The notes under the pieces were generated by a model, which was not told the DNA's origin, did not search any database, and saw nothing but the letters and a program-made list of their open reading frames with translations. Both the position numbers and the translations under genes were made by a program. Positions 5,567 to 22,307 of a DNA stretch of 27,242 nt are shown one piece after another. Every line of letters starts with the position of its first letter. Position 1 is the first letter of the stretch. The DNA comes from a virus, in IMG/VR virus record IMGVR_UViG_3300000553_000273, positions 1 through 27,242 of that record. One strand, 5' to 3'.

Positions 5567-6418
5567 TTATTTGTAATAATATTCTAAATTATCAACCCCG
5601 ATTTTTTTCCTAAAGTCGGGGGTAAATCTTCCTTCTACCTTAACTGTAATAGAAGATTTCCTTCCAGGTTCTATACTACCGTGCCAATTATGATGATTAA
5701 AGAACGCTGTATATCCTTCAACAGGAACAGTTTTAGTGATTTTACCGTCTTCTATGTCAAATAAAGAAAACGGCCGGTCCAAATCAAATCTGAACCAAAT
5801 TAGTTCTTGTCGATGAGGGAAAGTTTCAGGTTTGTTACCCATTTCTCGAGGAAAATAATTGAAATCTCGATGTTGCCCTAATGGCACATAATGCTCATTA
5901 TAAAATACTGTTACTATTCCAATTCTATCGAGCGGTAAATCTAAAATAAAATCTTTTATCTTTTGGTAATCATCTATGTAATCTACCCACGAGTATGTAT
6001 CCCAATCTTCGTCCTTAAACCAATATGCATCGGCTGCATAATTTGAGCTAGAAGTCTTCCTTAAATTTAGTACATTATATGGATCGAATGCACCATATTT
6101 AACTTTTAGATATCGACCTAATGCGTGTCTGTCGTTCATTGCTTCAAAATGAGATAAGTGTCTGTTTAGATCTTCATCGATTTTTCTGTCAATGTTGGCT
6201 TGCTCATATACATAATACAATAACCCTTTTTCTCGAAATACTTCAGTGTCGGCGTAAATATCTTCGGGTGCATGACCACCTGCGTTCCAAACACCGGTTC
6301 TAATGTTTTTCCAATTATTACATAATAAAAAAGTAAATTCGTCTTCTAAACTTAAAAGTCTTGGAATATCTAGGTGTTCATCTAACGTGATAAAAGGTTT
6401 GTTGTTAATATTAAGCAT
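5567..6418 (-). CDS. 2OG-Fe(II)/aspartyl-hydroxylase-like double-stranded beta-helix protein (283 aa)
   Basis: The C-terminal half carries the HxD...H iron site of 2-oxoglutarate-dependent oxygenases: H183 and D185 (GQHRDF), then H246 (NWHGS), with R253 or R264 available to bind 2-oxoglutarate. Such enzymes hydroxylate proteins, sugars or small molecules using O2. The N-terminal half (about 150 residues) is conserved in length with the paralogue at 7641, and both end in a similar tail (TPDFRKKIGVDNLEYY here). It faces the tail fibre gene tail-to-tail with a three-base gap. A late box lies five bases before its ATG. The substrate is unknown. Confidence 0.75.
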   Translation of the reverse strand: MLNINNKPFITLDEHLDIPRLLSLEDEFTFLLCNNWKNIRTGVWNAGGHAPEDIYADTEVFREKGLLYYVYEQANIDRKIDEDLNRHLSHFEAMNDRHALGRYLKVKYGAFDPYNVLNLRKTSSSNYAADAYWFKDEDWDTYSWVDYIDDYQKIKDFILDLPLDRIGIVTVFYNEHYVPLGQHRDFNYFPREMGNKPETFPHRQELIWFRFDLDRPFSLFDIEDGKITKTVPVEGYTAFFNHHNWHGSIEPGRKSSITVKVEGRFTPDFRKKIGVDNLEYYYK

Positions 6419-6423
6419 AAAAA

Positions 6424-6431
6424 TATTTATC
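6424..6431 (-). promoter_or_regulatory. T4-type late box abutting the 6418 start
   Basis: On the minus strand GATAAATA is followed by TTTTT and the ATG. With T4-like spacing the transcript would begin at or next to the start codon, giving a leaderless or nearly leaderless message. Confidence 0.5.
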
Positions 6432-6457
6432 GATACCTTTTTTAGGATATATAAGTT

Positions 6458-7021
6458 ATGAACGCAATAAACTATATCGGAAATTGTCGAAATTTAATCG
6501 ACTGTGATTCGTTGTTGGAAGAATTAAAATCGAAGGAAGGAGTTTCGAGAACAATTGAAACTCCGTATGGTAGAGGATCGGACTTAACTCAAAATGTTGA
6601 CGCGCTGTGCATGTATAACGCATGGAAAGATGCAGGTTATATCGATGCAAATTGTGTAGAATGGATTAATTTCTATCCTGAAACAGAGTTTAGTTCTAAC
6701 TATATCGATCTGTTATCTAAGTTTTTAGGTATAATTCCAAAAAATGTTTGGATAAGTTCTATTAAACCGGGTAAATGTGTTCCGTGGCATTGGGATATTG
6801 AACAAAATGCCGATGAATGGTCGAAAGAAGGATCGTTGACTAGATATACAGTTTTTATCGATACACCGAAGTTAGGACATGTATTTGTTGCCGATAATCA
6901 ATGTTTTTACTTAATTGAGCAAGGCTCTATGTACAAATGGAAGAATTGGAAAGACTGGCATCTAGGATTCAATTGTGGTTTCGAACAAAAATATATGTTA
7001 CATATTGTAGGTGTTGAATGA
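6458..7021 (+). CDS. aspartyl/asparaginyl-hydroxylase-like oxygenase (187 aa)
   Basis: A compact beta-helix protein. The strand-turn SSIKPGKCVPWHWD gives H111 and D113 (HxD), and H168 (DWHLGFN) is the distal iron ligand; the expected 2-oxoglutarate-binding basic residue would be K178. PGKCVPWH resembles the PG..IP.H.D motif of aspartyl/asparaginyl beta-hydroxylases. The gene is divergent from the 6418 gene across 39 bases and has AGGA ten bases upstream of its ATG; a GATATATAAG stretch replaces the clean late box seen elsewhere. Its TGA overlaps the next ATG (ATGA), so it is co-translated with 7018. Substrate unknown. Confidence 0.72.
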   Translation: MNAINYIGNCRNLIDCDSLLEELKSKEGVSRTIETPYGRGSDLTQNVDALCMYNAWKDAGYIDANCVEWINFYPETEFSSNYIDLLSKFLGIIPKNVWISSIKPGKCVPWHWDIEQNADEWSKEGSLTRYTVFIDTPKLGHVFVADNQCFYLIEQGSMYKWKNWKDWHLGFNCGFEQKYMLHIVGVE

Positions 7022-7644
7022 AAATAATTAGCATAATCGATGATACAGTATTCGAGTATTTTAAAACTTATGGTGTTGGATCTCCTACATATGTCGGAAA
7101 TTGGGCAGATGTTTTGCCTACCAATTTATCAGACAGATTGGAGTTATTTGATTGGAACAAACTCCCAATACGAAATTTTTCAAGCATTAACCCGTTAGCA
7201 GTTGACCATCCTTTGTATAACGACTTAATAGATTTATCTCACTTTAGTCACTATAAAACTATCGATCACTGTCAATGGAGAATTGTTAGTTTAACAGACT
7301 TTGAACTAGATTTAACGGCATTAAACAACAAAATTGAGGAGACGTTTACTCATTATAAAATATGGGTTACACGCATTGACCCAGGTTGCTGTATACCACA
7401 ACATCTTGATTCGACAAACGATTTTGTGGACAAATTTCAAATCGATCCAATTAATTTTAAACACATTAAACGAGTAATGATTCTTCCGCATGATGTACAA
7501 CCTTGGCACCATTTATGGTATGGTAACGAGATTATATCGAAAGGAACCAGAGGTGATACTTGGTCTTTAAATTTTTGGGAACCACACGGAGGAAGTAATT
7601 TAGGACCTATTCCTAAATATACATTGCAAGTTATGGGAATTTAA
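7018..7644 (+). CDS. aspartyl/asparaginyl-hydroxylase-like oxygenase (208 aa)
   Basis: VTRIDPGCCIPQHLD near residues 117-131 supplies H129 and D131, and EPHGGSN supplies H190, with K200 near the usual 2-oxoglutarate-binding position. The motif order matches the 6458 protein, and both end in a short hydrophobic strand (LQVMGI here, LHIVGVE there), so they may be diverged tandem copies. Its TAA overlaps the stop of the convergent 7641 gene by three bases, with no terminator visible between. Substrate unknown. Confidence 0.7.
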   Translation: MKIISIIDDTVFEYFKTYGVGSPTYVGNWADVLPTNLSDRLELFDWNKLPIRNFSSINPLAVDHPLYNDLIDLSHFSHYKTIDHCQWRIVSLTDFELDLTALNNKIEETFTHYKIWVTRIDPGCCIPQHLDSTNDFVDKFQIDPINFKHIKRVMILPHDVQPWHHLWYGNEIISKGTRGDTWSLNFWEPHGGSNLGPIPKYTLQVMGI

Positions 7645-8423
7645 TAATAATCTAAATGACCGATTCCTAGTTTTTCGCGAAATTCTTCAGTAAACGGCCC
7701 ATCGATTCTTAAACTATAAGTTTGCTTGTTTGTTCTTCCGCCTGCATGCCAGTCTTGATCGTTAAAGAAAATTGCACGATGCTCGGTTAGTATTTTTGTA
7801 TTAGTATCCGGATCCCATATATAAAATGGCTTATCTAAGTTTGGTCTAATATGTATGAATTCATGTCTGTGATTAAAATAATCTGTTTCTTCGGGAAGAA
7901 TTAAGTCTCTATGCATGGGCATTAGACAATCGTGTTCTGCTTTGAAAAAGATTACACGGCCTAAATGTTTAAAAACTTTATTTGTAACCAAACTTTCTAA
8001 CCACAATTTTAATTCAGGAAAATATTGTATATCAGGAGTCCACGCTTTTTCATCAAATCTAGATTCCCATCCTCCGTCTTCGGTTCTAAGAAAAATAAAC
8101 TGATAAGGATCATACGATCCCATTACTAATTTAAGATATAACATAAATTGATCTCTGTTGTTATACTCTCCAATTTCTCGTCCTAATATACGTATTTCGT
8201 GATCATCCGGCAGTGCGTGATATTCTTCCAATGCTTGAAAATTTGGTTTAAATGTTAGTTCATACGCATTGTCGCAGCCTCCCGGTTTAACCATATTTCC
8301 TTCTTTCTTATATTTAGACAATACAATTCCTTTACACATTTTATAATGTAATCTACTAAATCCTTCTACGTCAATGTGATCATCTAAATTTAAATATGGT
8401 ACTGATCCTATTCCTTTAATCAT
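7641..8423 (-). CDS. 2OG-Fe(II)-oxygenase-like protein, paralogue of the 5567 product (260 aa)
   Basis: Iron-site residues H171 and D173 (MPMHRDL) and H226 (DWHAGGR), with R239 in YSLRIDG as the likely 2-oxoglutarate ligand. The end (TEEFREKLGIGHLDYY) parallels TPDFRKKIGVDNLEYY of the 5567 protein, and the N-terminal halves share a similar layout, which supports a duplication. It is the last gene of a three-gene minus-strand block (9098, 8416, 7641) linked by overlaps of 8 to 11 bases. A function on the same substrate class as 5567 is likely but unproven. Confidence 0.74.
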   Translation of the reverse strand: MIKGIGSVPYLNLDDHIDVEGFSRLHYKMCKGIVLSKYKKEGNMVKPGGCDNAYELTFKPNFQALEEYHALPDDHEIRILGREIGEYNNRDQFMLYLKLVMGSYDPYQFIFLRTEDGGWESRFDEKAWTPDIQYFPELKLWLESLVTNKVFKHLGRVIFFKAEHDCLMPMHRDLILPEETDYFNHRHEFIHIRPNLDKPFYIWDPDTNTKILTEHRAIFFNDQDWHAGGRTNKQTYSLRIDGPFTEEFREKLGIGHLDYY

Positions 8424-9108
8424 AATCGATCACCTCGAAATCTAATTCCATTTTTTTCAATTCTCTATATATAAATTCAAACGTTGCTGGATTAAGTTGC
8501 AAGTATAATTCCGTAGCCGATACTGGATCGAAAAAACTTACATTACCTTGTTTAATTTCTCTGCCGATGATTGCTGATACTGTTTGATCTATTTTATATC
8601 TTAAATCGAATGGCGGATTGTTGACTGTAATTTTCTTTGCGATATGTGTAACATTGTGATATCGAGATAATGGAACTCGGATGACTAATTGTACCCTTGG
8701 ATGAGCTCCAAAATTAACAGCAGTGTGTATAACAGATCCGTCCATTTCATATAAGATGCCATCTGTAATGATCGGATGCATTGTTGATGTGTTCAAATCG
8801 ATCAAATAGCACTGGTCATTACTAATTAAGTTAAGATGATATCTGTTGTCTACATCTGCATGTGCCATATAGCATTTTCCGGGTTCTAATTTCATTAATC
8901 GGGCTTCACCTATTTTATAAGGAATAGAATCTAGAAAATAATGAAACGCGGTATCTTTCCATTCGTTAGATATAGTATACGGATCATATAACCAATGGCC
9001 AATCGGGTTATTTAATCGGCATCGTCCGGTTTCGTCCCATTTTACCTGATCCAACAACGGAATTAGTTCATCGAGATTTGTCTGGAATTTAAGTTTTTTA
9101 AGAAACAT
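8416..9108 (-). CDS. aspartyl/asparaginyl beta-hydroxylase-like protein (230 aa)
   Basis: I start at the ATG at 9108 (MFLKKLKFQTNLDELIPLL), because longer starts run deep into the upstream gene. LEPGKCYMAHADVD gives H83 and D85; DGSVIHTAVNFG gives H128; R138 or R144 (PRVQLVIRV) fits the 2-oxoglutarate position. This is the clearest aspartyl/asparaginyl hydroxylase signature in the island. About 80 residues follow the catalytic domain, a helical extension without recognised motifs. The start overlaps the previous gene by 11 bases and the stop overlaps the next start by 8. Confidence 0.77.
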   Translation of the reverse strand: MFLKKLKFQTNLDELIPLLDQVKWDETGRCRLNNPIGHWLYDPYTISNEWKDTAFHYFLDSIPYKIGEARLMKLEPGKCYMAHADVDNRYHLNLISNDQCYLIDLNTSTMHPIITDGILYEMDGSVIHTAVNFGAHPRVQLVIRVPLSRYHNVTHIAKKITVNNPPFDLRYKIDQTVSAIIGREIKQGNVSFFDPVSATELYLQLNPATFEFIYRELKKMELDFEVIDYD

Positions 9109-9784
9109 ACAATCCCTTGGCTCTTTCGATAAACCCATCGGGATAGTTAGATTTAAAACTTTCGAAAGCCATAAATTGCATAGAATTATATGACAATACA
9201 CTATCCCATGTAATTCCAGCCTTTGCCATCGTTTCTTCTAACTTAGACTGACGACCATCGCTAATATGGCTTTTAAAATTCTTTAATGGAACTAACTCTT
9301 CTTCATCGGAATGACAAAAGAAATAATTAATACTTTTTAATCTATTATTGACTATAAAATAACTACTAGGATGTAATGAATACTTGTAAAAATTTAAAGA
9401 CTTATGCGCCTTAAAAATTTCTATCATTTGATCTTGCCAATCAGGAAGCACTTTATCATAAGTACAATTATTATCATAATGTTGTTGCCAAAAATCCGGA
9501 CCGTCGATTTTTAAAAATATCTTTTTTGTAATGTAATCGATTTCTAAGATTTCAGGAACTAATTCGGGATAATGTTCGTTCATTAATGACAAATACTTTA
9601 CTTCCCGATTCCATTTATCCTCCATTAATTCTGGATCGATAATCTGATTCATACCTTTATGATAATCGGTATCATTGTGATACCATTGACAAAATATTTT
9701 TTTATCTTTACTTATGAGACTAGTATAAATTAGATTATTTCTGACCAATCCATATTCCGGTGTATTATTATAGTAGTATTCCAT
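9098..9784 (-). CDS. protein-kinase-fold-like protein, possibly a small-molecule or sugar kinase (228 aa)
   Basis: The layout recalls kinase-like phosphotransferases: an N-terminal sheet, a helix with WNREVKYLSLMNEHYPELVP (residues near 55-75), a linker strand FLKIDGPDFWQ, a helix ending FKAHKSLNF, and LHPSSYFIVNNRLKSINYF where a catalytic loop and metal strand would sit. The usual HxDxxxxN and DFG residues are not clean (HPSSYFIV and INYFF), so it may be a pseudokinase or a diverged family. It leads the minus-strand block 9098-8416-7641 and has a late box four bases before its ATG. The fold call is tentative. Confidence 0.5.
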   Translation of the reverse strand: MEYYYNNTPEYGLVRNNLIYTSLISKDKKIFCQWYHNDTDYHKGMNQIIDPELMEDKWNREVKYLSLMNEHYPELVPEILEIDYITKKIFLKIDGPDFWQQHYDNNCTYDKVLPDWQDQMIEIFKAHKSLNFYKYSLHPSSYFIVNNRLKSINYFFCHSDEEELVPLKNFKSHISDGRQSKLEETMAKAGITWDSVLSYNSMQFMAFESFKSNYPDGFIERAKGLYVS

Positions 9785-9788
9785 GAGA

Positions 9789-9796
9789 TATTTATT
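9789..9796 (-). promoter_or_regulatory. T4-type late box abutting the 9784 start
   Basis: On the minus strand AATAAATA is followed by TCTC and ATG. Back to back with the plus-strand box at 9804-9812, so this 50-base gap is a divergent promoter pair. Confidence 0.5.
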
Positions 9797-9803
9797 TTGC
9801 CAC

Positions 9804-9812
9804 TAATAAATA
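9804..9812 (+). promoter_or_regulatory. T4-type late box for the 9835 gene
   Basis: TAATAAATA, 22 bases before the ATG, with a GGAG ribosome site at 9826-9829. Together with the tail fibre gene, this is the conventional late layout with a leader. Confidence 0.55.
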
Positions 9813-9834
9813 ACAAACAGAAATTGGAGCATAA

Positions 9835-11070
9835 ATGTCGGTTCAATTATACAAAAATAAACTCAAGAGTCATATCGTTTATTGTTTTATTAACGATCTC
9901 GATAGGTATACCTCTAATTGGATAAAAGAGATTATAAAAAATAGTGCAGACTTTGAACTCACATCGGTGTTATCAAGAGGACACGATGTAATTATTAGCG
10001 ACAATGCAGATCATGCGTTATTAGAAGCATGTAAAAAACATACACATGCAGTTGTATGCTCTTTGGGCAATCAATGGTTCGATCAAGATACATTCTTTAA
10101 ATTAGTAAATGATAAATGTCAAGAAAATTTCTTCATAATCGGAGATATTGTAGACAACGAATTAGACACTACTTGCTATTTAATAGATTTAGATTGTTAT
10201 AGACGATTAAATTACACTATTAAAGGAAATGAAGGAGACATTGAGCCATTCGATGATGAATTTAAAAAATATAAAAGATATTTTCATCCTGATAAGTGCA
10301 ACTCGTTAAAAATGTTAGGACAACTTTATTTGGAGTCTTCGATTGGTAGTAAATCGTGGACCAGCGCATTTCAAATGCATCGATGTAATACACACTTGGA
10401 TATGGCAGGACCGCTATTAAATTTTGTTACAAATGCTAATGGGTTAGATTGGATTTTATATTTGTATCATTATGGGTTTGATGAGAATACCCGAGTCAAA
10501 TTTGTAGACTACAATATGGCTTCGTTGGAATTTACACGGCAATTAGTACAGTGGGAAGGCGAAGATTACCCAGAATTCATGTACAATTTCGGAAAAGAAA
10601 AAACAGAATACTTAAATCTTCCATACAACAGTTTCTTTTCCGAAAAAGATAATATCGAACAGTTGTGGAGTGAAACTAAAAAAATGGTAAATTGGGACGA
10701 AACATGGCCTAAAATTAGAAAGATGGTTAAATTTGAATTTTGTTATAAAGATTTCCTACATCAAGAAATCGATCACTGGTTAGACGAATCATATAACACC
10801 GAGAAAACATTAATCAACATCAGTCATGTCTTTAGTTATTATCCATCGGCTATATTTTATACATTGGATTACAGAATATCGATGGAAAATGCAACCATTA
10901 GATATCTAAAAGAAAACGTTCCGGAAGCATTTATTAAATTTACAGGTCGTGCAGGAGAAGGACTATATGAAGAAGAAATGCGTAGCTTTGGACAATGCAA
11001 AGAATTAGTAGAAATTCAAACAACGGAGTTAATTCGACCAGCATGGCACGATCCTTCCGATTGGTTATAG
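9835..11070 (+). CDS. large island protein, possible SAM-dependent methyltransferase (411 aa)
   Basis: A soluble 411-residue protein. The centre (LLNFVTNANGLDWILYLYHYGF, then VKFVDYNMASLEFTR near residues 225-240) resembles a Rossmann-type nucleotide-binding unit with an acidic residue ending the second strand, as in class I methyltransferases. The glycine-rich loop is not canonical. The first 180 residues look like a separate alpha/beta domain (HAVVCSLGNQWFD, FFIIGDIVDNE), perhaps glycosyltransferase-like. The C-terminus ends RPAWHDPSDWL. It stands alone on the plus strand with its own late box, and its TAG stop overlaps the convergent radical SAM gene's end. Function is uncertain; the methyltransferase call is an inference from pattern only. 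Confidence 0.45.
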   Translation: MSVQLYKNKLKSHIVYCFINDLDRYTSNWIKEIIKNSADFELTSVLSRGHDVIISDNADHALLEACKKHTHAVVCSLGNQWFDQDTFFKLVNDKCQENFFIIGDIVDNELDTTCYLIDLDCYRRLNYTIKGNEGDIEPFDDEFKKYKRYFHPDKCNSLKMLGQLYLESSIGSKSWTSAFQMHRCNTHLDMAGPLLNFVTNANGLDWILYLYHYGFDENTRVKFVDYNMASLEFTRQLVQWEGEDYPEFMYNFGKEKTEYLNLPYNSFFSEKDNIEQLWSETKKMVNWDETWPKIRKMVKFEFCYKDFLHQEIDHWLDESYNTEKTLINISHVFSYYPSAIFYTLDYRISMENATIRYLKENVPEAFIKFTGRAGEGLYEEEMRSFGQCKELVEIQTTELIRPAWHDPSDWL

Positions 11071-12486
11071 TAAATGTGCTAATTCAGGGAATGTTTTTTT
11101 AAAATCAGTTCCTCGAATTTTATCCATCTTTTGTATATACTCTTGAAAATCGGGTATTAGGTTAGATTGGTCTTCTGAATCCATCCAATCTAATATTCCT
11201 TCCCACCTTTTCCACCCATACGGATTCGTTTCCCAAAATTCAGTATCTTGTGTGTAGTTATTCCATAGCCATTGTTTTAACTCGTCGAACAATTTACGTA
11301 TTTCTGTCTTATCTTCTTTAGGTAATACTCGAAGACTTAGCCACGTTGGAATCCATACTAAATGTACTCCAATCAGACCTCCTCCTGACAATTGCCCTGC
11401 GGCATTTTTTTCAGAATTGAGTTTTTTAAACCCACTCAATACCTTCCACTTAATGAAGTCAGGAACATGCTTAATATTAAGAATCTGTATAGCATATGCT
11501 ATTGTAATTTCTATGTGATCTGGAGTATTTTCTAACATCCACAAGTTTTTTTCCACAATTTTCCAATCAGTAGGATATCGTATATAATGCACACGTTCGC
11601 CTATTCCGTCTAGACTAATACCGACTTTAACTTTACGAAACTGTTTCCAAATACTGATAATTTCTTCGTTAATAAGGATTCCGTTAGTATTGTACCGCAG
11701 TCCGATTTTATTTGCATAACCCCTACGAATGATCTCTTCTAAGAAAATTTTGTGTTCTTTGATCAATAAAGGTTCTCCTCCAGCAAAATATAATTGTTTG
11801 ATATTAGGAATTTGATCGAATATCTCCTCCCAGAATTTCGGATTTTCATGCCAAACATTATTAAACCCTTTTTGATCCCAAGTCATTTGTTTTTTGATTA
11901 ATGGACTTTGTACAATAGGAAATAACTTCTTGTGATCAGGAATCCAATGACTGGAATCATGCGGACTGCACATAACACATTTTAAATTACAAGTGTGGCC
12001 TAGTCTTAAGTCCAAATATTCCAATTTATAAGGAATAGAACCATCATCGGTTGTTTGTTCAACAAGTTCTGGAATGTTAATACCGTCATAATACCATGAC
12101 CCGGTTTCCCATACACGTTTACTAACAACTCCTTGCTCTTCCTCTTGATGGCACTTTAAACAATTTGCTGGAATTTCACCTGCTAAAATTGTTCGTCTTA
12201 TTGATCGCATGTATTCATTATTAAATGCTTCAGTCGGCAAATTATATGCAAAGTTTGCTGGTTTTCCATCTGCCATTTTAACTAAGCCCACTGTATAATC
12301 TCCAGACTCGGCACCACTAGCATTTGCTACACAACAAACCCTCATATCTCCATTGGGGCGTGTTGCTAAATGTATCCACGGTAATACACAGAAAGTAGGA
12401 CTTCCTGATACCTCTGTAATTTGTTTTTGCCACGTTCCTAATTGTGTGTTTTCGGAATGCAATTGAAAATGTTTATATTTTGTCAT
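11065..12486 (-). CDS. radical SAM protein with N-terminal twitch domain (473 aa)
   Basis: The first 120 residues hold a twitch-type cluster domain: C33 (TFCVLPWIHLATRPNG), C51 and C52, then C109 and C112. The radical SAM core follows with CNLKCVMC at C166, C170 and C173, and FAGGEP further on. This N-terminal-twitch order is the reverse of the usual SPASM layout and is known as a distinct radical SAM family. These enzymes cleave SAM to a 5'-deoxyadenosyl radical and usually modify peptides or other polymers when an auxiliary cluster is present. It overlaps the upstream gene by ATGA and is co-transcribed with it. Its homologue is at 14327. Confidence 0.88.
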   Translation of the reverse strand: MTKYKHFQLHSENTQLGTWQKQITEVSGSPTFCVLPWIHLATRPNGDMRVCCVANASGAESGDYTVGLVKMADGKPANFAYNLPTEAFNNEYMRSIRRTILAGEIPANCLKCHQEEEQGVVSKRVWETGSWYYDGINIPELVEQTTDDGSIPYKLEYLDLRLGHTCNLKCVMCSPHDSSHWIPDHKKLFPIVQSPLIKKQMTWDQKGFNNVWHENPKFWEEIFDQIPNIKQLYFAGGEPLLIKEHKIFLEEIIRRGYANKIGLRYNTNGILINEEIISIWKQFRKVKVGISLDGIGERVHYIRYPTDWKIVEKNLWMLENTPDHIEITIAYAIQILNIKHVPDFIKWKVLSGFKKLNSEKNAAGQLSGGGLIGVHLVWIPTWLSLRVLPKEDKTEIRKLFDELKQWLWNNYTQDTEFWETNPYGWKRWEGILDWMDSEDQSNLIPDFQEYIQKMDKIRGTDFKKTFPELAHLL

Positions 12487-13568: not shown

Positions 13569-13575
13569 AGGAAAA

Positions 13576-13583
13576 TATTTATA
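13576..13583 (-). promoter_or_regulatory. exact T4 late consensus abutting the 13568 start
   Basis: On the minus strand TATAAATA is followed by TTTTCCT and ATG. This is the only exact T4 late octamer found in the island. The T4 late transcription start would fall at or within a few bases of the ATG. Confidence 0.6.
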
Positions 13584-13598
13584 TGCTACTATAATGAA

Positions 13599-13606
13599 GG
13601 TAAATA
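13599..13606 (+). promoter_or_regulatory. T4-type late box abutting the 13612 start
   Basis: GGTAAATA, then TTTTA, then ATG. It faces away from the box at 13576-13583, forming a divergent pair in a gap of 43 bases. Confidence 0.45.
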
Positions 13607-13611
13607 TTTTA

Positions 13612-14343: not shown

Positions 14344-15601
14344 AACATTTTGTATGCATCCTTTTACAGGGTTAGCAACGAGAGAAGACGGTGCTATTAA
14401 AGTATGTTGTCGTAGTCACCCTATCGGTAATATACGCGATAACACCCTTGAAGAAATTTGGAATAACGACAATATAAAACGTATTCGTAAGCAAGTATTA
14501 ACCGACGAAAGACCGCCCGAATGTGAACCATGCTTTTATTTAGAAGATCAAGGAGTAGAAAGTTTAAGATCTCGACACGTTAAAGGATTCATCCCAGAAG
14601 CAAGAGTTAATTTATATCCTAATGCGTTAGAACAACTCGGTGATGATTATACCATGCCATTTGAAATTCCTACGATGGAACTTAAATTAAACAACTTATG
14701 TAATTTGAAATGTCGAATGTGCCATCCAGGCGATAGTACAAGCTGGACCGACTGGAATGAAATTAAAGAGTTTTATAAGAAAGAAAATAATATTATATAC
14801 GATCTAGTTGAATCAAATGATCTAGAAAATAAACCATTTCTTGATAAATTTCAAGACGATCCTAGATGGTGGGCCGACTTAGAAAAATTACTTCCTTATT
14901 TTAGGAGAGTAGAGTTTGCAGGAGGCGAACCATTAATGGATCCTCAACATTATCGTATATTAGATATGTTAGCGCCGTACGGTGATAATATCGAAATTAA
15001 GTACGCCACCAATTTAAGTATGCTAGGTAAAGGAGACAGGACCATTTGGGAATATTGGCCTAAATTTAAAAGTATAGCAGTAAATGTGAGTATAGACGGT
15101 ATTGGCGATTCGTACGAGTATATAAGAGGTAATGCTAAATGGACAGACTTAGTTGCAAATATTAAACAAATACAAACTATTCCAAATATTAGTCGAATAG
15201 TCGGAGCAGTAACCGTGCAAATAAGTAATATCCTAGTATTAGATAAGATAATCGAATATTTTCTCAATGACATAGGGATAGTATTTCACACACATCGGGT
15301 ATCTTACCCTAACTTGTTATCGGCACAAGTTCTTCCTCTCGATTTAAAAGAACTAGCTATCAAGCGTTTACGTGCAGTTAGTTATCGAGTACCTAATTTT
15401 AAATACGTTAAAGAAAATCCGAGATTGTTAGAATACACATTAGAACAGATACAATACAATATCAATTATTTAGAATCAAAAGATCTAAGTCATTTATTTC
15501 ACAAAAGTGTAGATTTTAACCATCGATTAGATCGAAGCAGAAAACAAAAATCATTTGAAGAAGTTAACCCGGAGTTTAGCTCATATATATGGAAAGAATA
15601 A
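14327..15601 (+). CDS. radical SAM protein with N-terminal twitch domain, second copy (424 aa)
   Basis: The likely start is TTG 14327, giving MNKTSKTFCMHPFTGLATR; the ATG at 14276 has a good AAGGA but would overlap the QueC-like gene by 68 bases. The next ATG would cut off the first conserved Cys. N-terminal twitch cysteines: C9, the CC pair in AIKVCCR, and CEPCF. The radical SAM cluster is CNLKCRMC at about C125, C129 and C132, followed by EFAGGEPL. Core motifs (VSIDGIG, YIRG) match the 11065 protein (SLDGIG, YIRY). Its end overlaps the next gene's start by 13 bases. Confidence 0.86.
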   Translation: MNKTSKTFCMHPFTGLATREDGAIKVCCRSHPIGNIRDNTLEEIWNNDNIKRIRKQVLTDERPPECEPCFYLEDQGVESLRSRHVKGFIPEARVNLYPNALEQLGDDYTMPFEIPTMELKLNNLCNLKCRMCHPGDSTSWTDWNEIKEFYKKENNIIYDLVESNDLENKPFLDKFQDDPRWWADLEKLLPYFRRVEFAGGEPLMDPQHYRILDMLAPYGDNIEIKYATNLSMLGKGDRTIWEYWPKFKSIAVNVSIDGIGDSYEYIRGNAKWTDLVANIKQIQTIPNISRIVGAVTVQISNILVLDKIIEYFLNDIGIVFHTHRVSYPNLLSAQVLPLDLKELAIKRLRAVSYRVPNFKYVKENPRLLEYTLEQIQYNINYLESKDLSHLFHKSVDFNHRLDRSRKQKSFEEVNPEFSSYIWKE

Positions 15602-16494
15602 CATCTCGTTGGCCCCATCAAGATTCTATTAAAGTTGAATGGAATATTGGAAAGCGTTGTAATTATGATTGTTCGTATTGCCCTAATGAAATACACGATC
15701 TCACAAGCCCACATGCTGATGTTAGTATTTTAAAAACGGCTATTGATAAATTGTCGTTATTAGGCAAACCTATAAGACTCAGTTTTACAGGTGGTGAACC
15801 TTGTATAAATCCTAAAATAGCAGAGCTAATTGATTATGCTCGATATAAAAGCATATATTGGATCAACGTAACTACAAATGGTACTAGAAAATCAGATTGG
15901 TATATTAAACAAAATGTCGATCATTACGTGTTTAGCCTACATTTTGAATTTGGATGGCAACGTGTTTTGCAAACTATAATCGATGTGCATAAACGCAGTA
16001 ACAAAGTAGTTATGGTTAATTTAATGGTACACCCTGATAAGATCGAAGAGGCTAAACTCTCTGCAAGTAAATTAAAACTCTCTGATATAAAATATGTATT
16101 ACGTAGAATACGTTGGACACAAGGCGACCATGATTTATTTGATGATATGAGATACCACCCTGACGATCTTAAATGGATACTCTCGTTAAATTCTACTGTT
16201 GATGGTAATTGTGTTATCGATAATGACACAATCATTCATGCTAATGATGTAATTAAACATAAACTAAATTGCTTTACAGATTGGAATTGCAATGCCGGAC
16301 TTGAAAGTTTAATGATTAATTGGGATGGAGAAGTTCATCGTGCTACTTGTCGTGTAGGAGGAAGTTTAGGTAACATTTACAATGGGACTTTCGAATTGCC
16401 AACTAGTGCTGTTGTGTGTACAAGAAACTGGTGTACATGTGCAGCAGATATACCTTTAACAAAATACAAACTTAATCAAAATCAATCTTCTTAA
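15589..16494 (+). CDS. radical SAM protein with C-terminal cysteine cluster (301 aa)
   Basis: The SAM cluster is CNYDCSYC at C24, C28 and C31, followed by SFTGGEP. The C-terminal 60 residues contain CNAGLESL, HRATCR and CTRNWCTCA, which could bind an auxiliary Fe-S cluster. It resembles the proteins at 20312 and 21270 in having the CNYxCxYC form and a Cys-rich tail. Third gene of the plus-strand block QueC-like, twitch radical SAM, radical SAM. It ends in a 23-base convergent overlap with the 16472 gene. Substrate unknown. Confidence 0.85.
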   Translation: MERITSRWPHQDSIKVEWNIGKRCNYDCSYCPNEIHDLTSPHADVSILKTAIDKLSLLGKPIRLSFTGGEPCINPKIAELIDYARYKSIYWINVTTNGTRKSDWYIKQNVDHYVFSLHFEFGWQRVLQTIIDVHKRSNKVVMVNLMVHPDKIEEAKLSASKLKLSDIKYVLRRIRWTQGDHDLFDDMRYHPDDLKWILSLNSTVDGNCVIDNDTIIHANDVIKHKLNCFTDWNCNAGLESLMINWDGEVHRATCRVGGSLGNIYNGTFELPTSAVVCTRNWCTCAADIPLTKYKLNQNQSS

Positions 16495-17548
16495 TTACTT
16501 GTTGCTGAGGCTTTGAAATTTTATTAATACCACACGATTTTGCACATGTGATTAACTTGGTATCATTCCAGTACTTCAACCAGACCGTTTGCCAAGTCGA
16601 TGAATTAATTATATCTTGAATAGAGTTTTTTAAAACATTTAATCTATCTATTCCTCCTAGGTCATTCACTAAATCAAAGTACTGAGAATTGATTTTTGAT
16701 TTTATGTCTGATAACAAACTGTTAGGATCGACATAACTGTAAGGTGCAGACGCTATATAACAACAAGGATACATATGTTTGTTTGCATCTATGTATATTT
16801 CTTTTAGTTTTTGAACATAACACGAAATATTAGAATCGTCCACCCACTTCTTAAATCCTTTAATCATTGTTTCATTAACTAATATAACTTCATTATTGGA
16901 TGGAGGTTCTAAGTAATATTCTATATTGCCGTCTTGATCTAAAACCGAATGCTGTGGTTCTAAGAATCGTGTGCTATTCTTAATGGAAAACGAAGAAAAC
17001 CCTAATTTCTTTGCAATAAGTTCAGCTTCATGTACTTGATGCTCATTATGTTTGAATTTTATAAAGACCCATTCAGCATTCCCACCGGAATTAATAAAGG
17101 AAGTAGCATTTTTAATAATCTGCTTGTAACTCGTACCGATTCTATATAAGTGATGGGTGTCTTCTAAGCCATCTATGCCAAAAATAACTGTATGATTCTC
17201 GGGTAATTCTTTAGCTAATGTTTTCCACCATGTTGTACTCCTTAAACTTCCATTTGTATGGATTCTAATTTGTATTTTAGGGTTTACAGATACAGCATAC
17301 TTACACATATCGATAAGATCGTCATTCAACAGAGGATCTCCAAAATTGCCACAAAAATATATAGAATATAGTTGTAGTAACGTCTTATGGTCGAATACCA
17401 TCATAAATTCGTTTAATGTCCAATCAGAAATTTTAAGATTAGGATTAGATATGCCTCCTTTATAATTACGAGCACACATCGGACATCTTGCTTGACATCT
17501 GCTAGTAATTTCTATATGTACCGCATGTAGTTCTGTAAATAAAAACAT
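16472..17548 (-). CDS. radical SAM/SPASM-type protein, copy 2 of three (358 aa)
   Basis: I start at ATG 17548 (MFLFTELHAVHIEITSRCQ), which overlaps the TAA of the upstream gene as TAATG. The SAM cluster is C18, C22 and C25 in CQARCPMC, the same positions as in copies 1 and 3. Shared motifs are FCGNFGDPL, FGIDGLEDTHHLYRIGT and FIKFKHNEHQ. Additional C-terminal cysteines (NISCYVQ, YPCCY, CAKSCGIN) suggest a SPASM-type cluster domain. It is a tandem neighbour of copy 3, and its product ends QQVIKKIDFD. Confidence 0.86.
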   Translation of the reverse strand: MFLFTELHAVHIEITSRCQARCPMCARNYKGGISNPNLKISDWTLNEFMMVFDHKTLLQLYSIYFCGNFGDPLLNDDLIDMCKYAVSVNPKIQIRIHTNGSLRSTTWWKTLAKELPENHTVIFGIDGLEDTHHLYRIGTSYKQIIKNATSFINSGGNAEWVFIKFKHNEHQVHEAELIAKKLGFSSFSIKNSTRFLEPQHSVLDQDGNIEYYLEPPSNNEVILVNETMIKGFKKWVDDSNISCYVQKLKEIYIDANKHMYPCCYIASAPYSYVDPNSLLSDIKSKINSQYFDLVNDLGGIDRLNVLKNSIQDIINSSTWQTVWLKYWNDTKLITCAKSCGINKISKPQQQVIKKIDFD

Positions 17549-18582
17549 TACAAACTGATATCTCCACAATTCTTTGCACAAGTTAGCATTTTCTTATCGT
17601 GCCAATATGTATCCCATATTGTTTGCCAAGATTCTGATTCCAAAACTTCTTCTATTGTTTTTTTATTTAAATCGATAGCAGATATGCCTCCTAAATCGCT
17701 CAACCATTTATAGAATTCTTCTAAAGATTGAATACGATATTTGTATAATGCTCCAGTTGGATCATAATATTGATAGTGGGCAGCAGCGAAGAAACAACAA
17801 GGGTACAAATGCATATATGCATCTACGTATATCTCATTTAATTGTTTTGCAATACATTTAATGTTAACATTCGAAAACCAATTGTCAAAGTTGTTAATTG
17901 CATGTTGATCAATAATGTAATGCAATCCATCATCGGGTGGTTCGAGTTTGTACATTAAATTTCCATCCGAATCGTATACTGGAAAATCTGGTTCTAAAAA
18001 TCTATGGCTAGGAGTTACAATAAACTCTTTAAATCCTAACTCGTTTGCGTATTGTCTAATTTCCTCTACTTGGCGAGCGTTATGCTTGAATTTTAAAAAT
18101 TTCCAGGTCGCAGTTCCGCCTTCGCCGATAAATGCTTTTGCATTTTTAATTATTTTTTTAAAATTAGTACCAATTCTATAGATATGATTAGTATCTTCTA
18201 ATCCATCTATACTAAACACAACTGAGTGATTTTTCGGCAATGCTGTATATAATTGCTTCCACCATTCCGTACTACGGATTCCACCATTTGTATTAATTCT
18301 AATAACCATTTCAGGGTTCACAGACTTCATGCGTTCGCACATTTTAATTAAGTCGTTGTTCATCAACGGATCGCCAAAACTTCCACAAAAATCCATTTTA
18401 TCGAGTTGTTTCAAGAATTCATCCGAAAACATCTTATTAAAATCATCGAAAGTCCATTCGATAAGTTTTAACTTAGGATTATCTAACCCACCATTACGGT
18501 TTCTTGAACACATTGGGCAACTGGCTTGGCATTTTGTAGTAATTTCGGCAACCACACTCTTAATCTGTTTAACTTTATACAT
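17548..18582 (-). CDS. radical SAM/SPASM-type protein, copy 3 of three (344 aa)
   Basis: SAM cluster C18, C22 and C25 in CQASCPMC. Shared motifs with copies 1 and 2 are FCGSFGDPL, NTNGGIRSTEWWKQL and FSIDGLEDTNHIYRIGT. The C-terminal cysteines (IKCIA, YPCCFF, CAKNCGD) fit a SPASM-type auxiliary cluster. It leads the two-gene block and is divergent from the 18599 gene across only 16 bases. The upstream minus-strand sequence is AT-rich (GATATATATTTATT) but lacks the clean TAAATA box. Confidence 0.87.
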   Translation of the reverse strand: MYKVKQIKSVVAEITTKCQASCPMCSRNRNGGLDNPKLKLIEWTFDDFNKMFSDEFLKQLDKMDFCGSFGDPLMNNDLIKMCERMKSVNPEMVIRINTNGGIRSTEWWKQLYTALPKNHSVVFSIDGLEDTNHIYRIGTNFKKIIKNAKAFIGEGGTATWKFLKFKHNARQVEEIRQYANELGFKEFIVTPSHRFLEPDFPVYDSDGNLMYKLEPPDDGLHYIIDQHAINNFDNWFSNVNIKCIAKQLNEIYVDAYMHLYPCCFFAAAHYQYYDPTGALYKYRIQSLEEFYKWLSDLGGISAIDLNKKTIEEVLESESWQTIWDTYWHDKKMLTCAKNCGDISL

Positions 18583-18590
18583 AATAAATA
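18583..18590 (+). promoter_or_regulatory. T4-type late box close to the 18599 start
   Basis: AATAAATA, then eight bases (TATATCTT), then ATG. It begins directly after the start codon of the divergent gene, so the whole intergenic region is this box plus its spacer. Confidence 0.45.
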
Positions 18591-18598
18591 TATATCTT

Positions 18599-19192
18599 AT
18601 GATCCCTTACTACTTTGAATTAACTGACTTTTTGCCTTTTAAAAAAGAATCCTTAATTGACATATCTTGCTTAACTATTTTAACAGATGTTATAGATGAA
18701 AACTTTGTTAGAAAAGACAATTATTCTCCTGATGTTCTAAGTCCTGCATTCTCTGATTATTTAAATGATTTAAGTTTAGAAATAAGAAAAATTATAGTAT
18801 GGCACTGGAAAACAACTAACCCGTCGATTGCTCATGTGGATTCTGGGCCTACAGGTGAAACTATTAATTCTGCTATAAACTGGACCTTAAACGAAAATCG
18901 CACGCAAGTGAACTTTTATGATATTAATGTAGAAGATTATGAAGTTAGTATTGGAAATTCGATAGTTCCTGAATGGAAAATGGATAACGTTGGTTCATTT
19001 ATACCTATCTATGTTAAAGATGTAACTCCAACGGCAATCTGGAGCGGAACCGAACCGTGCTTAATAAATCCTTTTATTCCGCATATGGTCGAAGCTCCAG
19101 AATTGAGAGTAACTGTGTCATTGCAATTTAAAGAAAATCATTCATTCTTGGATGTTATGAATCGAATCGCTCCATCTAGGATAACGACTTAA
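18599..19192 (+). CDS. aspartyl/asparaginyl-hydroxylase-like protein (197 aa)
   Basis: I start at ATG 18599 (MIPYYFELTDFLPF); any longer frame runs antisense through the divergent radical SAM gene. The iron site is H79 and D81 (SIAHVDSG) and H162 (FIPHMVEAPE), with R170 (ELRVTVSLQF) in the 2-oxoglutarate-binding position. The order and spacing match the other small beta-helix proteins of the island. It is a single-gene plus-strand unit. Its last 51 bases overlap the end of the convergent 19142 gene. Substrate unknown. Confidence 0.72.
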   Translation: MIPYYFELTDFLPFKKESLIDISCLTILTDVIDENFVRKDNYSPDVLSPAFSDYLNDLSLEIRKIIVWHWKTTNPSIAHVDSGPTGETINSAINWTLNENRTQVNFYDINVEDYEVSIGNSIVPEWKMDNVGSFIPIYVKDVTPTAIWSGTEPCLINPFIPHMVEAPELRVTVSLQFKENHSFLDVMNRIAPSRITT

Positions 19193-19720
19193 ATCTTCAT
19201 AAAACTGAAAAGAATTTAATTTCCATACCGATTGAGTTAACCCTCTATAAAAATAATCACCGGCATACGAAAGGATCTTTTTCTTTTTCAATGCAGGGCA
19301 GAATATCTTATGCACTAATTGTTGGGTACCTACTTCATTGTTATTCGAAGTAATATATAAATCAGCCCACGGTGGAGCCCATTCTATACAAATCGGAATT
19401 AAAAACTGTGCTGTGTAATTTTGATGTGTTGTGATTCCTGTAAGAGTTCGCAATGAGTTGATTGGTAGCATGTCCGAAAACAAGCATGTTCTTGCACAAA
19501 TGCGATAACTGTTTTCACCCATAATGTCAAATGTATGAGCAGCTACTGACCCTACCGCTTGATCATTATAATAGAAAATCCAAACCTGTTTTTCTGGTTC
19601 ATTGTTAAAACAATCGACTAGTGCTCTTTGACTACAATTGTTTTTAAATCCCTTAGATTCGGCAATTGAATAAAATGAAGTTAAATCTAGTTCAGGAGTC
19701 CAAGGGACTAGTTTATACAT
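19142..19720 (-). CDS. possible GNAT-type acyltransferase (192 aa)
   Basis: The layout fits a GNAT fold: N-terminal helices, strand QVWIFYYNDQAVGSVAAHTF (residues near 48-67), strand YRICARTCLF, then SLRTLTGITTHQNYTAQFLI where an acyl-CoA-binding helix could follow, and LYITSNNNEVG. The canonical acetyl-CoA loop Q/RxxGxG/A is not clear, so the call is tentative. It is the last gene of the four-gene minus-strand block (21270, 20312, 19713, 19142) and overlaps the methyltransferase gene by eight bases. An acyl- or aminoacyl-transfer step would fit a modification pathway, but that is inference. Confidence 0.45.
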   Translation of the reverse strand: MYKLVPWTPELDLTSFYSIAESKGFKNNCSQRALVDCFNNEPEKQVWIFYYNDQAVGSVAAHTFDIMGENSYRICARTCLFSDMLPINSLRTLTGITTHQNYTAQFLIPICIEWAPPWADLYITSNNNEVGTQQLVHKIFCPALKKKKILSYAGDYFYRGLTQSVWKLNSFQFYEDLSRYPRWSDSIHNIQE

Positions 19721-20315
19721 ATTTTTTACCTATAATCATGTAGCGTGTATATAAGGGCAATTCTAATTCACCGGCCCAATGCACGTCGATATTTGATTGT
19801 TCTTTAAATTCATCTAACGATTCTGCAATTCTACAATGCTCAGGAATTTTATAATTGTTACTTTGTACTACAATCGAAGTATCGGGCATTAGAAGATCTA
19901 ACCATTGTTCATAAGCATCTTGTGATATATGTTCTGCGCTGGTATTAATCGCAACGGGATTATTACCGAAATTCGGATATGTTTCCATCGGACGACATAT
20001 TGAACGAAATCTTCCCTGCATTTCTTCCAACTTGTTCATAGTACATGCTAGATCTAAACAACCGATGTCGATATCTACACTTTCAATTTTATTAACTGGA
20101 ATGTTAGATTGAAACAACATACTTGCTAAAACACCAACCCAGCCGCCGTAGATCACTATATCTGCAGGTTCCTGTATGAATGGTTTTAAATTATCAATTA
20201 ACCATTCTTTACTTTTCAATTGTCCGCCATAAAAGGCTTCTAGTATTCTTAATCGATCGTCACTATTGCGTATAGCGTCCATCCAGAATTTTACATGATC
20301 TAGATCTACCTTCAT
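19713..20315 (-). CDS. class I SAM-dependent methyltransferase (200 aa)
   Basis: A Rossmann methyltransferase core is visible. Motif I is IVIYGGWVGVLAS (residues 53-65), the acidic second strand is IESVDIDIGCLDLA (77-90), and motif IV is AINTSAEHI (122-130), where NTSxEH is distinctive of a phage and bacterial subfamily. A short helical N-terminus precedes it and a small C-terminal region (PLYTRYMIIGKK) follows. It starts with ATGA overlap to the upstream radical SAM gene, so both are made together. The substrate is not evident from the sequence. Confidence 0.75.
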   Translation of the reverse strand: MKVDLDHVKFWMDAIRNSDDRLRILEAFYGGQLKSKEWLIDNLKPFIQEPADIVIYGGWVGVLASMLFQSNIPVNKIESVDIDIGCLDLACTMNKLEEMQGRFRSICRPMETYPNFGNNPVAINTSAEHISQDAYEQWLDLLMPDTSIVVQSNNYKIPEHCRIAESLDEFKEQSNIDVHWAGELELPLYTRYMIIGKKYV

Positions 20316-21289
20316 TTAATTAATCTCTTTGTTGTATTAAACTCTTGCTCACAATTACAACACGATTTACTACATATTACAGGAACTAGTAATGGATCAA
20401 ACTGTTCCTTAAATTTATAATCATACAAGTTGTATTTGTCAGCTCTTCGATATAATGTTTCATTACAAAATGCTGTTATCTCTCCTGTGAATTGAATAAC
20501 AATATTATCTATACCTATATTACATTCCCAACCATTAAATTTGTTTAATTCGTGAAATAAAATATATTTTTTCTTAACTTGTTTTGTTTTACCATTTTCA
20601 AACTTTAATGTTACCTTATAATTGTATTCTTTATTAACTTTCCAAAACCAAAATAAGTTTGGTATCCTTTTTAGATAATTTTTAAGATATTTCTTCTGAA
20701 TAGGCGAGTAGGTAATTTTTTCATGAATTACCTGTGAAGCAATTATGCTCCATCTACATTTACTAGTTTTTAATTGATTAACAATATCGATCGCTCGATC
20801 CCAATTTTCAGAATCCATTAAAACAGATACATCGACATGCACATTTTGTGTATACAATAAATCTGCTACTTCTTTAACATGTCCTACATTAGCATACTTA
20901 GGGTGGCAGCTAATTAACACGTGGTCAAAATTCCTACCGTGACAATTCCACCATTCTATAGATTTAGATCCATTTGTAGTGATCATTATACTAATATTGT
21001 CGCCTAACCTATTTTTTAGCCTTTTTACAAAATCACTTAGGTGTGGCCAGAGGGTAGGCTCTCCTCCTAATAGATTTAATTGAATTTTTTGTTTTCCGAG
21101 ATGTTTTTTATAATAATCAATCAACCATAATAAATTATCAGTTACAACATCTATGTCGGGCCACTGCCAATTCCCTGTATTGCTGCCTGGAAAACAATAC
21201 CAACATTTATAATTGCATACATTGTGAATAGCGTAATTTATTAATAATCTATCTTTAGGCCAATGTTGATCAACTTTTACTAATTTCAT
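20312..21289 (-). CDS. radical SAM protein (325 aa)
   Basis: SAM cluster CNYKCWYC at C25, C29 and C32, followed by LNLLGGEPTLW. The C-terminal third has further cysteines (GWECNIG, AFCNE, CSKSCCNCEQ), which could form an auxiliary cluster. The region around residues 205-250 (KVTLKFENGKTKQVKKK) is unusually lysine-rich and may be a substrate-binding insertion. It overlaps the upstream 21270 gene by 20 bases. It is related in layout to the proteins at 15589 and 21270. Confidence 0.84.
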   Translation of the reverse strand: MKLVKVDQHWPKDRLLINYAIHNVCNYKCWYCFPGSNTGNWQWPDIDVVTDNLLWLIDYYKKHLGKQKIQLNLLGGEPTLWPHLSDFVKRLKNRLGDNISIMITTNGSKSIEWWNCHGRNFDHVLISCHPKYANVGHVKEVADLLYTQNVHVDVSVLMDSENWDRAIDIVNQLKTSKCRWSIIASQVIHEKITYSPIQKKYLKNYLKRIPNLFWFWKVNKEYNYKVTLKFENGKTKQVKKKYILFHELNKFNGWECNIGIDNIVIQFTGEITAFCNETLYRRADKYNLYDYKFKEQFDPLLVPVICSKSCCNCEQEFNTTKRLIK

Positions 21290-22256
21290 TCTTTTCTTTT
21301 GGTATTTTACTATCTGCCGAACTTACGCAACTAGGAGTTGTACATATCGTGGGTTCTTTGAATAAACTGAATCCATCTGTTAGTGTTCCTAATATTGTGT
21401 CGTGGCAACTATAGCTTCTCTTAACTTCATTACTTCGTATTATAACACTCTGATAACCACTGTTGCAACTCCAACCATAAAATTTGTTAAATCCAAAAGA
21501 ATTAAATCTTTCTGCCTGATCAAACAAATATTCGACATTATTTTTATCATATAACGCAACTTGAAATATTTCCTCCCCTGCTACCTTTTGCGGAAAACCT
21601 GTTTGCATCAATTGAATCATGTTTTCAGTATACCCATCTACTAGTTTGCTTGCAGTAGGATCGCTTTGCGGTTTTAAGGTTACATTAATTCCTTGCTCGT
21701 TAAATCTTGCACACCTCGAATACAATTCATAAAATTGATTCGGAATCATCACTTGGTTAATAGTAACATGGATGCCGTTATCCATTAAAAATAGAATCTT
21801 CTCACTAAATTCAGATTCATCGGCAAATTCAGCATGATAACTAGCCGTAATAGATCTTCTGTTTAAATTAGAAGTAGAAAGTATCCATTTTTTCCAAAAT
21901 ACTTGTCCTGGACTAAGGTTAGTAGTCATATGAATACTTTGAGACGACCCGTCATCTAGATGATCAACCAGATCCGGTAAATATTTATATGCAGTAGGCT
22001 CACCTCCGCTAAAGCTCCAATGAAATGATGTGAATCCGTTGTATCGTGCTTGTCTTTTAATTTCGGTAATAGATCGTTTATAAACATCTACCGGATAATA
22101 ATCAGGATGGTCAGATCTAGCATACGGCCAGCAATAACTGCAATGATAGTTGCAAAATCGACCTAGTATCCAACTAACTGAAAACAGCCTGTTGTCTAAC
22201 ATTGTTCTTTGTCCAAATTTCACAATTTGGTCGAATGGTATTTTAGAAAAATTCAT
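21270..22256 (-). CDS. radical SAM protein at the head of the minus-strand block (328 aa)
   Basis: I start at ATG 22256 (MNFSKIPFDQIVKFGQR), four bases after a late box, rather than an ATG 12 codons upstream. The SAM cluster is CNYHCSYC at C35, C39 and C42, followed by WSFSGGEPTAYK. C-terminal cysteines (GWSCNSGY, YSCHD, ICTTPSCVSS) suggest another Fe-S site. It heads the block of two radical SAM genes, a methyltransferase and a GNAT-like gene. Its start lies 58 bases from the divergent tRNA-like RNA. Confidence 0.84.
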   Translation of the reverse strand: MNFSKIPFDQIVKFGQRTMLDNRLFSVSWILGRFCNYHCSYCWPYARSDHPDYYPVDVYKRSITEIKRQARYNGFTSFHWSFSGGEPTAYKYLPDLVDHLDDGSSQSIHMTTNLSPGQVFWKKWILSTSNLNRRSITASYHAEFADESEFSEKILFLMDNGIHVTINQVMIPNQFYELYSRCARFNEQGINVTLKPQSDPTASKLVDGYTENMIQLMQTGFPQKVAGEEIFQVALYDKNNVEYLFDQAERFNSFGFNKFYGWSCNSGYQSVIIRSNEVKRSYSCHDTILGTLTDGFSLFKEPTICTTPSCVSSADSKIPKEKNEISKS

Positions 22257-22260
22257 CAGA

Positions 22261-22268
22261 TATTTACT
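22261..22268 (-). promoter_or_regulatory. T4-type late box abutting the 22256 start
   Basis: On the minus strand AGTAAATA is followed by TCTG and ATG, the same layout as the 9784 start (AATAAATA, TCTC, ATG). Confidence 0.45.
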
Positions 22269-22278
22269 AAGGTGTTTA

Positions 22279-22307
22279 TTGACTTGCAGCAAAAGAGGCT
22301 ATATACT
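22279..22307 (+). promoter_or_regulatory. sigma70-type promoter of the tRNA-like RNA
   Basis: TTGACT (22279-22284), 17-base spacer, TATACT (22302-22307). The predicted start, seven bases downstream, is G22314, the first base of the tRNA-like acceptor stem. Confidence 0.75.

Follow-up and report, generated by a model that had tools for sequence, protein, structure and literature searches.

We analyzed a 27 kb stretch of DNA from an IMG/VR virus record (IMGVR_UViG_3300000553_000273, positions 1 to 27 242; hereafter the window, in whose coordinates all positions are given) and found that 19 consecutive genes at 5567–22256 form an enzyme island, including eight radical S-adenosylmethionine (SAM) proteins, whose core is conserved as a set in other large, uncultivated aquatic phages and in part in bacterial chromosomes. 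Our preferred reading, to which we assign a probability of roughly 40%, is that the island encodes a single pathway, located in the host-recognition part of large T4-like myophage genomes, that tailors a surface glycoconjugate.

The island (Table 1) comprises eight radical SAM genes (rs1 to rs8), six genes for HxD...H proteins (oxA to oxF), a PP-loop gene (ppl), mt, a gnat-like gene, apt and u411, the last five being named at the motif level. Most of these genes overlap head to tail. The right edge, 22256, is the ATG start of rs8; with the longer TTG start it moves to 22292, and 99.5% of 5567–22292 is coding. The island is bordered by the tail-fibre-like gene fib and a tRNA-Arg gene (22314–22412). 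A preliminary description of the window had reported twenty consecutive genes uninterrupted by structural or replication genes; the run is indeed tightly packed and contains no such gene, and the count is 19.

The CX3CX2C motif was found in 8 island proteins, compared with a mean of 0.08 after shuffling of all 19 proteins, which rules out a chance origin, and all eight proteins exceeded the Pfam cut-off for Radical_SAM (PF04055). Among homologues dereplicated at <85% identity (12 to 68 sequences per radical SAM family), conservation was 90–100% for the motif cysteines and for the auxiliary ones, of which each family has 3 to 5. The eight complete motifs and the extra cysteine clusters noticed in the preliminary description are thus both borne out. 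rs1 and rs3 have their auxiliary cysteines on the N-terminal side, the other six on the C-terminal side, and 8 cysteines of rs1 are invariant across 68 homologues. rs1 (397 bits) and rs3 (331 bits) matched the N_Twi_rSAM model (NF033640, cut-off 170 bits), and the other six scored below it. Radical SAM enzymes form bonds that few other enzymes can form. The closest solved relative of rs1 is cytosylglucuronate decarboxylase, a sugar-nucleoside enzyme, at a weak E-value of 0.002.

Six HxD...H motifs are likewise present, as expected from the six 2-oxoglutarate (2OG) oxygenase-like proteins described previously, and the family level was reached only by oxE (PF05118, 29.8 bits; cut-off 22.6). For oxA to oxD and oxF, the Pfam search gave no PF05118 match, and no significant sequence match was found in the PDB. 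The motif was fully conserved in oxA, oxB, oxD and oxE (54 homologues for oxE; Table 1 for the others), and oxC and oxF, with one homologue each, are assigned by the motif. oxA and oxD are homologous (hhalign, E 9e-29), and the profile alignment of oxB with oxE was weak. Because mt has no Pfam match, its assignment, formerly given as a clear methyltransferase, is based on Rossmann-type motifs, which are conserved in 22 sequences, those from Bdellovibrionota included.

The ppl protein carries an SGGADS motif and a Cys4 site, and its homologues retain SGGxDS (62/63), C(x)18-30CxxCxWCxER (63/63) and an HP motif (63/63). We compared these 63 sequences with the diagnostic signatures of other PP-loop enzymes (PMC13329287). 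Matches were 0/63 for each of the canonical QueC motifs (PF06508 cluster 1: C(x)8CxxCxxC, YxQxHxxE, VPxRN, YPDC), for each of the QatC motifs (C(x)19CGxCxxRR, D(x)4R(x)7WxR, RxRxxx[FY], P(x)4TK), and for the Cap9 (CE(x)6CxxCxxCxD) and WbpG-type (CxxC(x)6CxC) motifs. Judged by these motifs, the PP-loop enzyme is a lineage of its own, and its earlier label as QueC-like holds for SGGxDS and for a weak match to the QueC-like PHROG 1550 and fails for the diagnostic motifs. A pathway of 7-deazaguanine chemistry acting on DNA, tRNA or protein could account for that PHROG match and for the weak QueE-like PHROG matches of rs4 and rs7, and QueC relatives are known to modify proteins in Qat and in the cyclic-oligonucleotide-based antiphage signalling system (PMC13279940, PMC11996544, PMC13329287). 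However, apart from SGGxDS and HP, ppl has none of the motifs sought, QueE models scored far below the cut-off, and QueD, FolE and a transglycosylase were not seen in the window. We therefore rejected the deazaguanine route on the ppl motifs and regard it as extremely unlikely.

We examined the co-occurrence of these genes on viral contigs. A scan with rs2 yielded 145 viral relatives, with a recurring block in many of the best 80. Because rs2 is itself a radical SAM gene, the analysis was repeated with ppl, which has relatives on at least 495 viral contigs. Among the best 80 of 495 relatives, the following families were found within 10 kb of ppl: rs3 (78/80), oxE (76/80), rs1 (73/80), rs4 (72/80), rs5 (62/80), mt (59/80), oxB (56/80), rs8 (54/80), apt (52/80), rs7 (46/80) and gnat (17/80), and at least three radical SAM matches were present in all 80. 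These counts are not independent, because the 80 loci are the nearest to the query and some are near-copies; the dereplicated figures are those given for the homologues under 85% identity. ppl and rs3 were same-strand neighbours in 71/105 loci, as were rs3 and rs4 in 70/108, and beyond ppl-rs3-rs4 the gene order differed among loci. Approximately ten core families are co-retained at 45–75% identity across many contigs and two phage lineages, and the ratio of nonsynonymous to synonymous substitution rates had a median of 0.05–0.10 in twelve families, indicating purifying selection. On this sequence evidence, the island proteins are working enzymes.

Two long contigs, G213 (191 kb) and G214 (265 kb), matched both flanks of the window. 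The order in G213 is mpp-p229-p221-IF1-secreted protein-rs8, the remainder of the island, oxD-apt-fib, and then a Ro60-like gene. In G214 the island occupies 35 kb (G214:183308-219000); about twenty extra genes separate rs2 from mt, among them nitroreductase-like and further oxygenase-like ones. The TerL proteins of both contigs are T4-like (32–34%). Since G213 and G214 keep the order on both flanks, the island is not an assembly join to a bacterial gene cluster, and its homologues are not scattered singly but occur as the conserved set seen at the ppl loci. The joint pathway that the preliminary description had proposed is strongly supported by the ppl co-occurrence, the synteny of the long contigs and purifying selection.

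A second, marine T4-like lineage is represented by G001 (357 kb) and G003 to G006. Its islands adjoin tail or baseplate genes. In G003, G004 and G005 these encode gp25, gp6 and a giant tail protein; G006 has the giant protein, and G001 has a Collar-domain protein. G001 and G005 carry a fib homologue at the end of the island opposite the tail genes, and G004 also carries T4-like capsid and portal genes (gp23/gp20). The fibre gene thus adjoins the island in two lineages, and a fib-type N-terminus was found in island-flanking homologues of G001, G005, G213, G214, L165, L179, L186 and L218. In its relatives, the island's location fits the host recognition cluster of pelagimyophages and cyanomyophages, a large accessory region amid tail-fibre and baseplate genes of T4-like myophages in which two pelagimyophage genomes contain radical SAM cassettes (PMC7029224); the window itself shows the fibre side. 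That cluster is hypervariable, whereas the hypervariable content expected of it was not found in the island, whose core of approximately ten families is conserved and whose order varies.

Single-sequence pattern searches for rs8, p229 and fib returned no relatives, which reflects the method, and an alignment query of rs8 then retrieved orthologues with 45–52% identity in chromosomes of Bdellovibrionota metagenome-assembled genomes (MAGs). This phylum has predatory bacteria among its members. An rs8 orthologue was present in 11/192 Bdellovibrionota genomes sampled, and the bacterial rs8 often occurs with rs1 and an rs5-type gene (L107-L119, L122, L124-L126, L129, L132), and in some cases also with mt and a GT-A gene of family F230. 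Unlike the island, these loci are chromosomal and lack ppl, rs3 and most of the HxD...H proteins. For most of them, misbinned phage DNA is ruled out by contigs of up to 937 kb and chromosomal neighbours (for example, S49 peptidase and MoxR). F230 proteins (~230–320 aa) were found in 73/81 marine phage loci and 10/41 bacterial loci and have a predicted GT-A fold (model confidence pLDDT 92; Foldseek E 1e-5; VIA Z up to 11.1 over ~130 residues). GT2 glycosyltransferases accounted for 13/91 of the bacterial neighbours, which also included an epimerase, a GDP-mannose dehydratase and an OafA-type acyltransferase. In the midpoint-rooted rs8 tree, the 30 viral rows formed a single clade (100/99) adjacent to Halobacteriovoraceae, and Bdellovibrionota were paraphyletic; this topology is consistent with one ancient exchange between phage and bacterium in either direction.

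Several other MAG contigs (L120, L121, L127, L128, L130 and perhaps L123) look like phage contigs within MAGs binned as Rickettsiales, Gammaproteobacteria, Chloroflexi, Acidimicrobiaceae or Bdellovibrionales; the radical SAM order in L128 is that of the viral contig L058. Elusimicrobia loci (L133, L137, L138, L145) each contain up to approximately seven distant rs8-like radical SAM genes in loose arrays.

Within the island, we found no free small open reading frame (ORF) family common to the window and its relatives, and a ribosomally synthesized and post-translationally modified peptide with a local precursor was accordingly rejected for the island. An ORF of ~60 aa ending in D[TG]PA or CPA lies inside the islands of some relatives (7 loci, for example L226:7715-7915 on the minus strand, L159, L182 and L207); it is a possible small substrate that the window does not have.

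Because there are no small precursor peptides, a peptide substrate would be a large protein, and the island might modify the phage's own tail-fibre or adhesin proteins. Hydroxylated, cross-linked, epimerised and capped residues, also on a Bdellovibrionota adhesin, could give a tougher or differently binding tip. This possibility draws its appeal from the constant fibre neighbour and from what twitch/SPASM and PF05118 enzymes usually act on: the island has a PF05118-type hydroxylase, and all eight of its radical SAM proteins have auxiliary clusters. However, the bacterial relatives lie amid GT2 and O-acyltransferase genes, we found no conserved substrate motif in fib, and fib homologues diverge widely among phages that share the core. 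We consider fibre modification, the main rival to glycan tailoring, somewhat unlikely. Rather doubtful, in our view, is an undescribed maturation pathway that would use as many as eight radical SAM enzymes, together with iron oxygenases and a novel PP-loop ligase, to place a chemically unprecedented decoration on the virion's receptor-binding fibre, with machinery partly common to, and perhaps acquired from, Bdellovibrionota, where it would act on a comparable surface structure.

Related clusters have been described in other phages. The Campylobacter phages CP220 and CPt10 have multi-radical-SAM clusters (PMC2853527) that resemble the island in their adjacent radical SAM genes, T4-like background and a distant relative of rs2 (23.5%), and differ in having five such genes and an amidinotransferase. 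The cluster of the CP220-type phage F379 includes an inosamine-phosphate amidinotransferase and a nucleotide-sugar transferase and, unlike the island, no annotated oxygenase. The CP220 genes were read by their authors as auxiliary metabolism (PMC2853527), and a Bfd-like ferredoxin lies close to the island; a general boost to host metabolism with no surface function is nevertheless quite improbable, given that known central-metabolism enzymes were not matched and that the set is conserved in a fibre-adjacent position. The cyanophage S-SSM6a has a multi-enzyme sugar/amino-acid modification cluster that includes 2OG oxygenases, interpreted as decorating the capsule or synthesizing a secondary metabolite (PMC7824862); it is built on carbamoyltransferases and a halogenase, and no radical SAM array is described. 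A small-molecule or peptide natural product made during infection, such as a toxin, antibiotic or siderophore, would agree with that published interpretation and with the island's enzyme mix, which is like that of biosynthetic clusters, but is improbable, as the island lacks a transporter, carrier protein, resistance gene and precursor peptide and its position beside fibre genes is constant. Phage Mosig has three MoaA-like annotated genes, Asp_Arg_Hydrox, GNAT and methylase genes in a host-recognition-type layout, together with an ArnB-like aminotransferase and a carbamoyltransferase. The marine T4-like genome TARA_ERS488813_N000010 contains 12 radical SAM genes (PMC5332604), a likeness that concerns published gene counts.

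We favor the tailoring of a surface glycan because of the bacterial context, the GT-A family and the sugar enzymes in the analogous clusters of Mosig, F379 and S-SSM6a. The weak similarity of rs1 to the sugar-nucleoside enzyme cytosylglucuronate decarboxylase also speaks for it. Here we infer the substrate, the order of the steps and the benefit. Each radical SAM enzyme, which besides its catalytic iron-sulphur cluster has one or more auxiliary ones, would dehydrogenate, epimerise or deoxygenate sugar or sugar-amino-acid units or form C-C bonds in them, all of it difficult C-H chemistry. Hydroxylation would fall to the HxD...H oxygenases, and the PP-loop enzyme would activate a carboxylate or amide with ATP. 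Capping by mt and gnat might follow, and the units could be transferred by proteins of GT-A type, namely F230 in the marine lineage and perhaps u411 in that of the window. The product, shown on the envelope of the infected cell or on the fibre, may alter recognition by the same or competing phages.

Several observations weigh against a glycan. The window's island lacks a confident glycosyltransferase: F230 is absent from the G213/G214 lineage, and the u411 model is poor (pLDDT 56; VIA Z 8-9 to GT-A/nucleotidyltransferase folds). Within the window we found no nucleotide-sugar pathway, and some Bdellovibrionota copies (L109) stand apart from polysaccharide genes. Moreover, twitch/SPASM radical SAM enzymes and PF05118 hydroxylases mostly act on polypeptides. 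The preliminary description had suggested peptide or polymer modification; a peptide is one of two live readings, and with no precursor in the island, the GT2 neighbours of the bacterial relatives point at least equally to a glycan.

Other genes were observed near the island. An initiation factor IF-1 gene (22806–23027; 73 aa; PF01176, E 9e-19) has 77–83% identity in G213/G214. The product of the gene at 22435–22773, a secreted protein of 112 aa, has an HExRH-like motif (HQLGHEIRHCFQG) and no Pfam family; it is conserved next to rs8 at six or more divergent loci. The window also encodes an RNA-binding/vWA-like protein (2111–3514; phrog_850; DUF2828/DUF7788) and the Bfd-like 2Fe-2S protein (3774–3971), and its flanks also hold an FtsH fragment (2–1180) and a ClpP-like protease (26853–27242). 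In a relative, a histone H1-like Hc1 protein (L216:18125-18319; PF07432, E 2e-15) adjoins rs8.

Table 1. Genes of the island and the bordering fibre gene.
Gene	Position	Strand	Assignment and features
fib	4433–5563	+	Tail-fibre-like; bounds the island; N-terminal Mtd_N-like match below cut-off
oxA	5567–6418	-	HxD...H oxygenase-like; H183xD185...H246 kept in 5 homologues; homologous to oxD
oxB	6458–7021	+	HxD...H oxygenase-like; H111xD113...H168 100% in 49 homologues; no Pfam family
oxC	7018–7644	+	HxD...H oxygenase-like; H129xD131...H190; n = 1 homologue
oxD	7641–8423	-	HxD...H oxygenase-like; H171xD173...H226 and R239 100% in 21 homologues
oxE	8416–9108	-	Aspartyl/asparaginyl beta-hydroxylase-like 2OG oxygenase; likely ATG start 9108; PF05118 match
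apt	9098–9784	-	Kinase-like by sequence inspection; no Pfam match
u411	9835–11070	+	N-terminal GT-A-like domain, low-confidence model
rs1	11065–12486	-	N-twitch radical SAM; NF033640 match
rs2	12483–13568	-	Radical SAM, C-terminal auxiliary Cys; PF04055 34.3 bits
ppl	13561–14343	+	PP-loop ATP enzyme, Cys4 site; start probably 13594 or 13609
rs3	14276–15601	+	N-twitch radical SAM; NF033640 match
rs4	15589–16494	+	Radical SAM, five C-terminal auxiliary Cys; PF04055 43.6 bits
rs5	16472–17548	-	Radical SAM; ATG start 17548, ORF opens 17581; PF04055 34.7 bits
rs6	17548–18582	-	Radical SAM, rs2/rs5 paralogue; PF04055 32.2 bits
oxF	18599–19192	+	HxD...H oxygenase-like; likely ATG 18599; H105xD107...H188 (numbered from 18521); n = 1 homologue
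gnat	19142–19720	-	Acetyltransferase-like by inspection; no Pfam match
mt	19713–20315	-	Rossmann methyltransferase-like; no Pfam match
rs7	20312–21289	-	Radical SAM, five C-terminal auxiliary Cys; PF04055 44.8 bits
rs8	21270–22256	-	Radical SAM, island core; alternative TTG start 22292; PF04055 40.9 bits

Among ~50 000 phage records searched, rs8, ppl and the GT-A family had no match, and rs1, rs3 and rs4 had matches only at 24–28%; no cultured phage carrying the core was found in that collection. In the openly accessible literature, we found nothing linking radical SAM enzymes to tail-fibre modification or to polysaccharide and SPASM, and within it the conserved set, the second lineage and the bacterial counterpart appear to be undescribed. 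The earlier statement that no such phage pathway was known therefore holds for the exact gene set, and not for clusters of this kind (PMC2853527, PMC5332604, PMC7029224). Since the core is under strong purifying selection and absent from those records, aquatic viruses appear to possess an entire biosynthetic pathway that has not been described. Judging from its Bdellovibrionota relatives, the pathway may have a bacterial counterpart amenable to study by gene removal. Should its product decorate fibres or host envelopes, this would represent new chemistry for phage-host recognition and superinfection exclusion.

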